A stretch of 64,000 bases of DNA from Neobacillus sp. PS2-9 (GTDB taxonomy: Bacteria > Bacillota > Bacilli > Bacillales > Cytobacillaceae). Position numbers and translations under genes: made by a program. The stretch lies in NCBI RefSeq assembly GCF_030915525.1, contig NZ_CP133269.1, forward strand, positions 3,011,001 through 3,075,000, read 5' to 3'. Below are positions 18,466-29,241 of this stretch, one piece after another. The notes beneath the pieces were generated by a model that saw only the letters and a program-made list of their open reading frames with translations, had not been told where the DNA came from and ran no database searches. The number at the start of each line of letters is the position of its first letter. Positions within the stretch are counted from its first letter, which is position 1.

Positions 18466-18543
18466 TTAGGCAGCTGGCTGGCATAGTGATTTTCTCCTTA
18501 GCCCCTTTAGCTTTGCGCCACTGATTTTCACCAGTTTTGCCTT
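18466..18543 (-). ncRNA. c-di-GMP-I (GEMM-I) riboswitch aptamer
   Basis: Read on the minus strand, the sequence follows the GEMM-I consensus in order. It starts with AGGCAAA, then a 6-bp stem ACTGGT/ATCAGT capped by the GAAA tetraloop, then the conserved GGCGCAAAGC (consensus G-R-CGCAAAGC), then AGGGGCTAAGGA at the start of P3, and finally ATGCCAGCCAGCTGCCT, whose GCCT closes P1 with the initial AGGC. Every universally conserved block of the class is present, including the tetraloop and its partner side. Downstream are a GGTATAG/CTATACC hairpin (18408-18426) and the terminator at 18350-18381. Confidence 0.9.
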
Positions 18544-18750
18544 GATCGAGATTCAATGTTTTTAGTATCTAAATAATCTCTAATCAAATAATAGAATGTT
18601 TTAACAATATCGAATATCCGACTATTTTCCCATTTTTGTCGAATTTACTAGGTATTTAGTTCTAAATTATAGAATATTACGTAGATTTATTTAGAATCAT
18701 GTCATAAATTGTCATTTATTCAAATTTTTATGACTCAATCTATTACTTTT
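18544..18750 (-). other. AT-rich leader/promoter region upstream of the riboswitch
   Basis: 207 bases between fliT and the aptamer with no coding potential. It must contain the promoter of the riboswitch transcript, for instance TCGACA, 17 bases, GGATAT in the middle, but several weak sigma-A-like pairs can be read and none is convincing. No clear terminator follows fliT. Confidence 0.4.
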
Positions 18751-26157: not shown

Positions 26158-26184
26158 TTATCGGATGAAAAATTTGAATGTTTA
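26158..26184 (-). promoter_or_regulatory. Sigma-D promoter of flaG-yviE
   Basis: Minus-strand TAAA (26181-26184), 15-base spacer, TCCGATAA (26158-26165). Exact -35 consensus. It shows that the divergent endonuclease reading frame must start farther right. Confidence 0.9.
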
Positions 26185-26294
26185 GTGAAAATTATGTAAA
26201 TGTAGGAAAAAAACAGTTATTAAACTATCAATTAAGAATTTGTTTATTAGCCTTATTACTTTATAATCAGAGTAGAAACATATGTTCTCGAAAG

Positions 26295-27157
26295 ATGAGG
26301 GAGAGTTTGTTTCAGTCTCTAAATGACATTCAAATTAATGTTTTAATTGCTAGTATTATAGGTGATGGAGAATTAACGAAGCTTTATAAAGGAAGCAGAC
26401 GAAAAAATAGTAGTTACAGGGAGCACTACGGAGTAAAACAAAAAGAATACCGTGAATGGAAAATGGAGATTATGAATGGTCTTTTTTATATAACTCCAAA
26501 AAGTAATTCTTTACGTTCAGCCTCGAGTCCTCTTTTCACAAACCTATTAGAACTTTTTTATAATAATAATGAAAACAAAAAAATACCTTCTTCAATATTA
26601 CCCTTTTGTAATCTTCCACATTTTCTAGCTGTACTTTACATGGATGATGGGTCTTTGTCTATCAGTACAAATATTAACCATAATAATAAAAAATTTATAT
26701 TACACCCCATATCTATTTATATTTACAGAACTACCCCTTAGAGGAATTAGCACTTCTTAAAAACCACATCAAAAACTATTTTCAAATCAATTTAAGATTG
26801 GCAAGAAGAAAAGATGGACATGGTTTTATCTTACGAACCACGTCAGTAAATGAAACAATAGCTTATTTAAGTATCATTAAAGACATTTCGGAAACTTGCC
26901 CAAGAATGCTTTATAAAACCAGTTTGAGTTACCGATTACAACAAGAAACACAGAAATGGAAACTCAAATTCCCTGATTACAAACTTATTGTATCTAGTTC
27001 CGATAGAAATAAAAATTATACAGCAGAAGAAAACAAGTTGCTAATCTCTTTAAAGAATAGTGGACACAAGGATAAGGAAATAGCCATTATACTTGGTCGA
27101 AGCTATTGGTCTGTGGTATATAAACTTAGTGAATTACGGAAGATAAATCTTTTATGA
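26295..27157 (+). pseudogene. LAGLIDADG homing endonuclease gene with one frameshift
   Basis: Plus-strand gene, opposite to the flagellar genes. The first part has two LAGLIDADG motifs, IASIIGDGEL and FLAVLYMDDG, with intact acidic residues. The frame breaks at a run of six A at 26688-26693: adding one A joins ..NHNNKK to IYITPHIYLYLQNYPLEE and then to the second open part ending at 27157, giving about 287 aa. The C-terminal 45 residues (YTAEENKLLISLKNSG ... GRSYWSVVYKLSEL) look like a Myb/SANT DNA-binding domain. The ATG at 26295 is the likely start; a longer frame to 26178 overlaps the flaG promoter. It could be a true loss, a programmed -1 slip on A6, or a sequencing error. It lies outside the group I intron, between flaG and hag. 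Confidence 0.8.
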
Positions 27158-27162
27158 AAAAT

Positions 27163-27193
27163 AAAAGAGGCTTTGAAATTCAAAGCCTCTTTT
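27163..27193. terminator. Bidirectional terminator between hag exon 2 and the endonuclease gene
   Basis: AAAAGAGGCTTTG / CAAAGCCTCTTTT, perfect 13-bp stem with A-run and T-run on both sides. It ends both the convergent endonuclease transcript and the hag transcript. Confidence 0.9.
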
Positions 27194-27200
27194 ACTATTA

Positions 27201-27245
27201 TTAACGAAGAAGTTGAAGAACTCCTTGTGGTTGTTGGTTCGCTTG
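27201..27245 (-). other. Second copy of the flagellin C-terminal codons (3' exon)
   Basis: Fifteen codons on the minus strand encode QANQQPQGVLQLLR and stop, the canonical flagellin C-terminus. They lie after the group I intron and directly before the hag terminator. Joining the flagellin frame at ..MLA (codon boundary) to this exon gives the usual flagellin ending; joining at ..QMP gives the same ending seven residues later. The last 27 bases are a diverged duplicate of the end of the main hag frame. Confidence 0.85.
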
Positions 27246-27600
27246 CTTTGCGACTGTATCTTTCGATTACAGAATAGACTATATCTTCATCCATAATTCT
27301 ATGGAGCCGGGCACTTCGAACAGTATTAGCTGCCCTACGAGATTCATAGTCATAGCTATTTAGCCTTAGACCGTATTCCCTAGTCGTTGAACCTTCTCCA
27401 GAGTTTCCTCACAGGAGCTTGGCTGCTGATTATCCATTGTTTCATCTTTATCATTTTCAAACCATTCCGTTTACCGTTTCCAGTTCCGTTGCGGTTGATA
27501 AAGCTTTAGGAAGTTCCAGCAATTCACCCAGTTATACTCTAGCTCGTTACCTAGCTAGACGCCCTTATAATCATTATCTCAGAAGTTGTAAAACTCCTTG
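27246..27600 (-). ncRNA. Group I intron (about 355 nt) at the 3' end of the flagellin gene
   Basis: Minus strand. P2 hairpin CTAGCT/AGCTAG (27539-27558); P/Q pairing TGCTG with CAGCA of AATCAGCAGCCAAGCTCC (27414-27431); P6 CTCC/GGAG; R element GTTCAACGACTAG (27380-27392); S element AAGATATAGTCT (27276-27287); P7 GACTA/TAGTC; P9 CTGTA/TACAG (27254-27272); P9.0 UU/AA before a terminal G at 27246. The internal guide GGGCGT (27559-27564) pairs with exon ATGCCT (27601-27606) with the required U.G at the splice site, placing the 5' splice site at 27601/27600. No reading frame inside. The first 27 intron bases encode QGVLQLLR-stop, so the unspliced RNA is also complete. Confidence 0.85.
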
Positions 27601-28758
27601 AGGCATCTGATTTGATTGAGCCAACATTGCTTGTGCTGCTTGAGAAAGAATTGAGTTCTTTGTTTGAGTCATCATTTCCTTCGCCATATCAACATCCCTT
27701 ACACGAGACTCAGCAGCTGTTAAGTTTTCAGAAGATGTACCTAAGTTATTGATAGTGTGTTCCAAACGGTTTTGAGCAGCACCTAGAGTAGAACGTTGTT
27801 TAGAAACTTGCTTTATCGCTGCATCAAGTGATGAAGTTAAAGTGTCAGCTTTCGCTTGAGTATCAATAAGAGAATTTGCAGCACCAGTTACTAAAGTACC
27901 GATTTCGCTTCCAGAAGTACCCAAGGTAGTGGAATCCATTTTCGCGAAGGAAACAGCTAGTTTTTCGTCACTAGATCCATTTGATCCTATTGCAAAACTT
28001 GCAGAAGAATTAGCACCAGTTGTTATTGTTAGACCTGCTAAATCAGTTGCAGTATCTGCAGCAGCTTTTGTTGTTACACCGGCAATTTCAATTGAAATTC
28101 CTAATTCACTAAAGTTAAGTGTTGATTTACCATCCGCACCAATAGTAGGCTCAGCGGTAATAGTTTGTGCTACTGAGTCTGATGTACGAGTTAAACTAAT
28201 TTTTCCTCCAGTAGCATTACCTAATGTATATGTTTCGCCACCAAGAGCACCAGAAACATCAATTTTAGAAATTGCAGCGGCGCCATTTGTTGCTAATGCT
28301 TTACCAACAACAGCTGTACCACCAGATACTGTCGGTGCTAAATCACCATTTAATAGCTTTTTACCGTTGAATGCAGTAGTTTTTGAAATACGGTCAACTT
28401 CAGCTTTTAATTGCAGTAATTCTTCACCGATCGCTTCGCGGTCATCAGTATTATTTGTGTCTGTTGATCCTTGAACTGATAGTTCACGCATACGTTGAAG
28501 GATGTCATGCGTTTCGTTTAAAGCACCCTCAGCAGTTTGAATCATAGAAATACCATCTTGAGCGTTACGAGAAGCTTGGTCTAAACCGCGGATTTGTCCA
28601 CGCATTTTTTCTGAGATCGCTAGACCTGCTGCATCATCACCAGCACGATTGATGCGAAGACCTGAAGATAATTTTTCCATAGATTTAGCTTGTGCATTTG
28701 ATGCACTGCTTAACTGACGATGTGTGTTAAGTGCAGCAATGTTGTGATTAATACGCAT
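27574..28758 (-). CDS. hag: Flagellin, genomic (unspliced) reading frame
   Basis: Filament subunit, 394 aa. N-terminal D0/D1 (MRINHNIAALNTHRQLSSAS ... SGLRINRAGDDAAGLAIS) and C-terminal D1/D0 (NRLEHTINNLGTSSENLTAA ... QMPQGVLQLLR) are conserved; residues about 140-300 form a variable Ala/Thr/Gly-rich D2/D3 domain, larger than in B. subtilis Hag (304 aa). AAGGAGG lies before the ATG. The last 27 bases of this frame lie within the predicted group I intron; splicing would replace the last 8 residues by 14 (QANQQPQGVLQLLR). It is unknown which form is made. Confidence 0.95.
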   Translation of the reverse strand: MRINHNIAALNTHRQLSSASNAQAKSMEKLSSGLRINRAGDDAAGLAISEKMRGQIRGLDQASRNAQDGISMIQTAEGALNETHDILQRMRELSVQGSTDTNNTDDREAIGEELLQLKAEVDRISKTTAFNGKKLLNGDLAPTVSGGTAVVGKALATNGAAAISKIDVSGALGGETYTLGNATGGKISLTRTSDSVAQTITAEPTIGADGKSTLNFSELGISIEIAGVTTKAAADTATDLAGLTITTGANSSASFAIGSNGSSDEKLAVSFAKMDSTTLGTSGSEIGTLVTGAANSLIDTQAKADTLTSSLDAAIKQVSKQRSTLGAAQNRLEHTINNLGTSSENLTAAESRVRDVDMAKEMMTQTKNSILSQAAQAMLAQSNQMPQGVLQLLR

Positions 28759-28843: not shown

Positions 28844-28870
28844 TTATCAAAAATAAAATTTAAAAACTTA
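28844..28870 (-). promoter_or_regulatory. Candidate sigma-D promoter of hag
   Basis: Minus-strand TAAG (28867-28870, over the csrA stop), 15-base spacer, TTTGATAA (28844-28851). Spacing is exactly that of the other sigma-D promoters but the CC of the -10 box is replaced by TT. The leader that follows has a small GGG-TATAT-CCC hairpin (28798-28812 region) and a single GGA in the ribosome binding site, a possible CsrA target. Confidence 0.5.
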
Positions 28871-29200
28871 AGTTATTAGTTCCTGATTATTTCCTTTATA
28901 CAATTCTTCTCGAAATATACTAATTTCTTTAGGTGCATCAATAGCAAATCTTAGTAAACCAGATTCAGTTTGAAGAATTGAAATTTTTACATTTTCACCA
29001 ATTTTAGTTGAGGACTCAATTATTCTAGTCCCTTTTTTCAGAAACTTACTACTACTTTCAGTATCCTTCAACTTAGAAATTGACAAATTCTCTGGTGCAT
29101 CAATGACTAAACGAAGTTTTGAATCAACTTGTAAGACAGTAACCTTGATAACATCATCAATGATCACTGATTGCCCGATTTCTCTGCCTACAATGAGCAC
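28868..29200 (-). CDS. csrA: Tandem two-domain CsrA-like translational regulator
   Basis: 110 aa from GTG 29200, preceded by GGAGG at 8 bases. Normal CsrA is 60-75 aa and a homodimer; here two CsrA units are fused. Unit 1 (about 1-47) begins MLIVGREIGQSVII, keeping R6 of strand 1, but its strand 5 is decayed (LSISKLKD instead of VSVHREEIY). Unit 2 (about 57-105) has a decayed strand 1 (FLKKGTRIIESS) but an intact strand 5 (APKEISIFREELY). In CsrA each RNA site is made of strand 1 of one subunit and strand 5 of the other, so this fusion appears to keep one site and lose the other. It lies between fliD and hag, whose mRNA is the known CsrA target in Bacillus. No fliW is nearby. Confidence 0.88.
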   Translation of the reverse strand: MLIVGREIGQSVIIDDVIKVTVLQVDSKLRLVIDAPENLSISKLKDTESSSKFLKKGTRIIESSTKIGENVKISILQTESGLLRFAIDAPKEISIFREELYKGNNQELIT

Positions 29201-29241
29201 GTTACCATCCTCCAATGATTCATTAATTTGTACAATTCTTA

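Follow-up and report, generated by a model that had tools for sequence, protein, structure and literature searches.

A probable splice-optional group I intron at the 3′ end of the flagellin gene in Neobacillus sp. PS2-9 and its Bacillales relatives

The flagellin gene hag of Neobacillus sp. PS2-9 probably contains a splice-optional group I intron, such that spliced and unspliced hag mRNAs would both make flagellin. In the window, by which we mean the whole 64,000-nucleotide stretch of DNA that was analyzed, the intron lies just past the codons for MLA, and both forms of the mRNA encode a complete protein, as judged from the sequence together with selection. The unspliced frame ends MLA-QSNQMPQGVLQLLR-stop and the spliced frame would end MLA-QANQQPQGVLQLLR-stop, each 14 residues past MLA, with two residues different between them. 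The first-pass annotation had proposed that flagellin is complete with or without splicing; this core idea holds and recurs widely, whereas its isoforms six residues apart give way to two ends of equal length.

The intron, its two flagellin endings and their recurrence

The presence of a group I intron after the hag reading frame, as first annotated, was borne out by a minus-strand match to RF00028 at 27592-27254 that spans model positions 1-253 of 253 with 76.4 bits (gathering score 50) and an E value of 1.2e-17. This covariance search had been named as a check, and it matched the complete model and accepted the core. Group I was the only intron family matched in the Rfam scan of the window, with no group II match. 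The open reading frame list likewise contains the complete hag frame, 28758-27574, that had been described as ending ..MPQGVLQLLR-stop without splicing, and the second flagellin C-terminus noticed downstream of the intron is indeed present as QANQQPQGVLQLLR-stop at 27245-27201. This hag is the single full flagellin match in the genome search; the other match, at 35% over residues 2-139 of a 302-aa frame at about 22.1-22.5 kb of the window, is to what we take to be flgL. Two RF00028 matches were found in the genome, the second of which (40 bits; G000:C1:1013256-1013535, locus L002) presumably falls in a tmRNA gene. Weak group I intron matches of similar score to this 40-bit match recur in other genomes of the genus. 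The features of the hag 3′ end are as follows, with a slash marking the predicted splice site.

27574..28758, minus strand: hag (flagellin) frame from unspliced mRNA, 394 aa, ending MLA-QSNQMPQGVLQLLR-stop (Flagellin_N and Flagellin_C)
27619..27627, minus strand: end of the 5′ exon, ATG TTG GCT (MLA); GCT pairs with the guide, with U.G at the splice site
27246..27618, minus strand: group I intron, 373 nt, last base G (RF00028; ends set by P1 and the 3′ exon)
27574..27618, minus strand: intron-borne flagellin C-terminus, QSNQMPQGVLQLLR-stop (sequence and selection tests)
27608..27612, minus strand: 5′ strand of the P1 extension, AAUCA, within the N-Q codons
27569..27573, minus strand: 3′ strand of the P1 extension, UGAUU, immediately past the stop codon
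27561..27564, minus strand: P1 guide GGGC, partner GCU/C (comparison and folds)
27250..27252, minus strand: short hairpin over the 3′ splice site, intron side CGC
27240..27242, minus strand: short hairpin over the 3′ splice site, exon side GCG (Ala codon)
27201..27245, minus strand: 3′ exon, QANQQPQGVLQLLR-stop

The predicted ligated junction joins ..ATGTTGGCT to CAAGCGAACC. Predicted tryptic C-terminal peptides are NSILSQAAQAMLAQSNQMPQGVLQLLR for the unspliced form and NSILSQAAQAMLAQANQQPQGVLQLLR for the spliced form, with a mass difference of about 18.98 Da.

Two further features lie behind the 3′ exon.

27162..27194, listed on the plus strand by the scan: palindromic terminator-like stem between hag and the convergent gene
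26178..27157, plus strand: convergent LAGLIDADG endonuclease gene, broken into frames 26178-26741 and 26798-27157

The first endonuclease piece matches PF03161 (3.8e-12, 46.9 bits) and the second has no Pfam match; the frame shifts between 26741 and 26798, and the window holds no open full-length frame of this gene. No terminator was listed on the minus strand between 26100 and 29300, including between the two flagellin stop codons. Relatives of the LAGLIDADG gene stand behind the 3′ exon in 36 of the 109 loci (out of 155) that have at least 1.3 kb of downstream sequence, and 13 LAGLIDADG relatives have stop-to-stop frames of at least 284 residues with a loose LAGLIDADG-like motif. The likeness to LAGLIDADG homing endonucleases found beside or inside group I introns is that a family-2 relative lies behind the 3′ exon; unlike them, the gene here is outside the intron and runs in the opposite direction (convergent in 36 of 36). 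The intron may be mobile as a unit with its 3′ exon and the endonuclease gene. Elsewhere in the window there is a c-di-GMP-I riboswitch aptamer (18466-18551, minus strand, 74.8 bits), and beside hag a CsrA-family protein (28868-29215, minus strand) with two matched stretches over 115 aa, which may be a tandem or fused CsrA.

Introns of this kind were collected in three ways. A pattern scan of named genomes gave at least 118 loci from Neobacillus, Heyndrickxia, Peribacillus, Niallia, Mesobacillus, Metabacillus, Rossellomorea, Sutcliffiella, Oceanobacillus, Aquibacillus, Virgibacillus, Sporosarcina, Fictibacillus, Brevibacillus and other genera; 106 pattern-scan loci carry the intron-borne copy of the ending (the locus L129 ends within the 3′ exon) and two, L131 and L084, do not. 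A family search added 36 introns with both copies, together with L069, one intron cut at its 3′ end and four late partial matches; L069 is a truncated relic with a false anchor, and L131 is the same relic. Because the family query contained both copies and the pattern scan fixed the QANQQPQG codons, only the order-level set is unselected for these features. Its query was the intron core alone (27545-27254), with no exon and no copy, and core matches, including relatives at other sites, were found in 164 of 397 genomes and 70 of 135 genera. The order set comprises 85 loci, mostly the best of the matches from those 164 genomes, and yields 75 distinct introns that follow an ATGYTNGCN exon. All 75 have a 3′ exon that stays open up to a stop at codon 15, and a complete 14-codon flagellin ending plus stop opens the intron in 72, a count that required neither GCT nor a good 3′ exon, with the 3′ exon still located by its flagellin likeness.

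Two other sets serve particular comparisons. The P1 set consists of 123 of 124 distinct introns, one of the two in L104 being left out. Introns entered a larger set of 155 only with GCT, a ATGYTNGCTCAR exon, a copy that has VLQL and stops at codon 15, and a 3′ exon that scored at least 50, so those features are present in it by construction; excluded from it were L077, L069, L176, L084, L284 and L097 for lack of an anchor, and L256, L270 and L159 by the copy filter, L159 having I for V at position 9 and being otherwise complete. The comparison with family genes uninterrupted at the site used 74 of about 112 rows, and the 30 loci used for the Ala codon overlap these. Across the 155 introns, the number of residues at which the two endings disagree is one in 7 introns, two in 109, three in 35, four in 3 and five in 1, with positions 2 and 5 accounting for most of the differences. 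The DNA of the two copies differs at 6 to 19 of 45 bases, and they are therefore not fresh duplicates.

The three order-level exceptions are L256, L270 and L291. Other sequence takes the place of the copy in L256 and L270, which would give a wrong or truncated end if unspliced; in a tree with introns from further upstream in hag both fall, with moderate support, among the copy-bearing introns, a placement that suggests they have lost the copy. In L291 and L084, both from Oceanobacillus arenosus, codons 1 and 7 of the intron copy are stops and the 3′ exon is open; complete flagellin would come only from spliced mRNA, which makes this species a natural test case. A further intron, L284, has a 5′ half like that of the upstream-site intron (..ALVA-stop) and a 3′ exon encoding QPNQQPQGVVQLIR-stop, and is likely a hybrid.

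The splice sites and P1

The first-pass annotation had paired a guide GGGCGT with exon ATGCCT and placed the 5′ splice site after ..MP, which would make the second isoform six residues longer. All six pairs of that helix can form in 71 of the 123 introns and the base at -1 would be U in 98, but GGGCG is invariant in all 123 whereas the proposed partner in the MP codons varies (ATGCCT, ATACCT, GCACCT, TTGCCG, TCGTCG, CAACCG and others). Four or fewer pairs form in 23 introns, the -1 base is A, G or C in 25, uninstructed folds pick GCUC:GGGC instead, and L256 and L270 are without any MP codons. We consider a splice site after ..MP extremely unlikely, and the spliced end ..MPQANQQPQGVLQLLR derived from it is replaced by ..MLAQANQQPQGVLQLLR, which follows from a splice site after MLA.

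On the comparative evidence, the 5′ splice site is predicted after ..MLA (GCT/CAA), with P1 formed by GCU/C:GGGC and an intron-internal extension. A side remark in the earlier annotation had suggested ..MLA as the original junction, and this is the junction that comparison now backs. In all 123 introns GGGC pairs with GCU plus the first intron base, which is C in 122 and U in 1, and this places U.G at the splice site. The junction codon is GCT in every one of the 123 although the search fixed amino acids only, and in 75 of 75 order-level introns, where any GCN was allowed; in family genes uninterrupted at the site, the codon is GCT in 41 of 74. The base immediately 5′ of GCT is a purine in 122 of 123 introns, and uninterrupted genes often have CTT at that place. 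The copy-free introns L256 and L270 begin at the identical GCT/CA. A guide targeting the upstream DV codons of hag was also considered, and was dropped once the GCU pairing had been recognized.

The U.G in GCU:GGC at the 5′ splice site is found in 123 of 123 introns and in 30 of 30 in a consensus fold, and these pairs, being invariant, are not tested by covariation. An uninstructed fold of the window RNA gave the GCUC:GGGC P1 with the extension AAUCA:UGAUU, the energy of this region alone being unexceptional (z -1.55; 15 of 200 shuffles fold equally well). The consensus fold of 30 diverse introns, also uninstructed, placed GCUC:GGGC in all 30, with the extension absent. The extension takes other forms elsewhere, such as CACAACA:UGUUGUG, CAAAU:AUUUG, GCGAAUAG:CUAUUCGC and GCAAAUAGUC:GAUUAUUUGC, and reaches at least five pairs in 109 of 125 distinct combinations, compared with a mean of 78 and a maximum of 88 when partners were permuted (400 permutations).

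At the other end, the last intron base is G in all 155 introns of the filtered set. The consensus fold places a hairpin over the 3′ splice site in which intron positions -7 to -5 pair with exon positions +4 to +6, the Ala codon of QAN. Intron -7 and exon +6 are paired in 155 of 155 introns, as C:G in 81, G:C in 72 and G:T in 2; since the pair switches between C:G and G:C, the third base of the exon codon covaries with the intron. That Ala codon is GCG or GCC in 152 of the 155 intron-bearing 3′ exons, and GCT or GCA in 23 of 30 uninterrupted genes. The conserved group I core fold, U.G at the 5′ splice site and a terminal intron G are thus all found.

Selection on both endings and on the ribozyme

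Sequence changes were counted by parsimony on the intron-core tree. Among the 72 order-level introns with a complete copy, the copy has 230 synonymous and 93 non-synonymous changes, with 218 of 323 at third positions, and the 3′ exon has 125 and 32, with 109 of 157 at third positions; the sequences are related, so these counts are not independent and their independence is overstated. Read in the other two frames, the order-level sequences give synonymous to non-synonymous counts of 54:264, 20:301, 28:127 and 10:147. The set of 155, filtered for VLQL, gives 449:162 for the intron copy and 255:60 for the 3′ exon, where the expected synonymous share is near 0.27. The residues V9, L10, Q11, L12 and L13 (VLQLL) are invariant in the 72 intron copies and 75 3′ exons of the order set. 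These patterns show, at the level of comparative sequence, that both endings are under protein-level selection. The 3′ exon sits behind a stop codon and still has the third-position pattern, for which the simplest reason would be translation of spliced mRNA; the same pattern in the intron copy points to translation of unspliced mRNA too.

The RNA is under selection as well. Of the 94 pairs in the consensus fold of the 30 diverse introns, 56 have changed on both sides with pairing preserved in one sequence or more, which fits a working core rather than a fossil and indicates that the ribozyme is under RNA-level selection. We infer from this comparative evidence that the intron splices in cells.

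An intron that no longer splices would be mere 3′ untranslated sequence, with the 3′ exon as a fossil. Partial relics do exist (L069 and L070), and the endonuclease gene adjoining the intron in the window is broken. Intact 3′ exons are found in L069 and L070 too, so the exon can outlast the intron for some time; broken 3′ exons occur in L097, L125 and L132, all of which are without an intact intron upstream. Against a dead intron stand the 75 of 75 open 3′ exons with their third-position pattern of change, and covariation within the core as well as between the two sides of the 3′ splice site. These objections concern the group: the intron of the window is judged through its relatives, could have lost activity recently, and could itself be a young relic. 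Overall we regard a dead relic as very unlikely. The earlier suggestion of a relic made harmless by recombination fits poorly with a 3′ exon that evolves as if translated, with compensatory changes in the core and with covariation at the 3′ splice site.

If splicing were instead obligate, only the spliced mRNA would matter: the early stop would serve to keep ribosomes off the ribozyme, and the flagellin likeness of the copy would be a by-product of RNA structure. An early end to the frame (..ALAA-stop), with no complete copy, is indeed seen in the related intron that lies further upstream in hag, and the Oceanobacillus arenosus introns described above combine a stopped copy with an open 3′ exon. 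VLQLL is nevertheless retained in the copies of 72 of 72 order-level introns, with free change at synonymous sites, and lineage-specific residues are common to intron copy and 3′ exon. Among the 155 introns these shared residues are, at position 8, A/A in 7, S/S in 3 and S/G in 2, and at position 14, Q/Q in 14, G/G in 3, K/R in 4 and Q/R in 2, the A/A, Q/Q and G/G cases stemming from few lineages. Obligate splicing therefore seems to us highly improbable. Gene conversion may help to keep the copies alike.

Proposed mechanism and comparison with known systems

In the splice-optional arrangement that we favor, a group I ribozyme lies within the flagellin gene past the MLA codons, and its first 45 bases, which double as the 5′ side and loop of P1, repeat in frame and in diverged form the coding sequence of the downstream exon through its stop codon. 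Ribosomes on new, unspliced hag mRNA would finish flagellin within those 45 bases and leave before the catalytic core, so that the ribozyme could fold. RNAs that escape to splice would join MLA to QANQQPQGVLQLLR, and later ribosomes would make flagellin of equal length. Splicing would be optional for the host, with both mRNAs made and both proteins having to work. Judging by the distances, the P1 extension and the guide should be hidden under a ribosome that terminates in the copy, and competition between translation and splicing is therefore probable.

A different reading of the same gene is a regulated switch, in which each C-terminus has its own function and temperature or translation governs splicing and thereby the choice between them. 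The endings do differ in 155 of 155 introns, by two residues in 109 and mostly at positions 2 and 5, and temperature-dependent splicing of a thermophile flagellin intron is reported in passages of PMC4853749. Position 2 lies within P1, however, so that RNA may dictate the codon and with it the residue, and position 5 accepts ten residues among the 72 order-level copies, which fits weak constraint better than a defined second role. For these reasons the two flagellins are likely to be near-equivalent, and we think such a switch unlikely. Equally tentative is a Bacillales-wide, RNA-level choice of flagellin C-terminus, in which ribosomes on the copy would mask P1 and keep the unspliced form, and low translation or warmth would lead to splicing and the other ending.

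Reports of group I introns in bacterial protein genes are rare, according to passages of PMC3984707 and PMC4853749. Plausible reasons are that the ribozyme is disturbed by translation and that a failure to splice leaves a truncated protein. With the host's protein ending in its own P1 loop, an intron would avoid both costs, which would explain its persistence in a very heavily translated gene and its spread through many genera. It would also provide a natural system in which to measure the competition between translation and self-splicing, with the C-terminal peptide as a built-in readout, and if the two endings differ in function, it would represent alternative splicing of flagellin in bacteria.

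In the genus, another group I intron is often present in flagellin genes, immediately 5′ of the MAKEMM codons (L003-L012 and others). At ten such loci the unspliced frame stops at ..DYALAA or ..DYALTA, and because it ends early, splicing seems to be required at that site. That intron resembles the present one in having a related core in the same gene, and several genomes carry both in one gene; unlike the present one, it has no complete flagellin end inside. In the tree, the introns at the MLA site group separately from the other 92 introns in the fetched loci, none of which is followed by a flagellin end; those of the 92 that were read sit before the MAKEMM codons of hag.

Our literature search, judged mostly from titles and the beginnings of abstracts, recognized no description of this arrangement. 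Group I introns in flagellin genes of Geobacillus and thermophilic Bacillus were described by Hayakawa and Ishizuka in 2009 and 2012, studies known to us only as cited in passages of PMC3984707 and PMC4853749. In the account given in part of PMC4853749, flagellin introns are assigned to subgroup IA2, and the activity of the thermophile intron depended on temperature and promoted motility when the temperature was higher. The thermophile introns share with the present one a group I ribozyme in a Bacillales flagellin gene; they differ in that temperature-dependent motility, as paraphrased from PMC4853749, suggests that the unspliced form is insufficient there. The nearest functional parallel that we met is the group II intron C.te.I1 in a surface-layer gene of Clostridium tetani, for which passages of PMC3919590 describe four alternative splices and five distinct isoforms. 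In that system too a bacterial intron leaves spliced and unspliced mRNAs that each encode surface protein, whereas the intron described here belongs to group I and has one predicted splice and two nearly identical ends.
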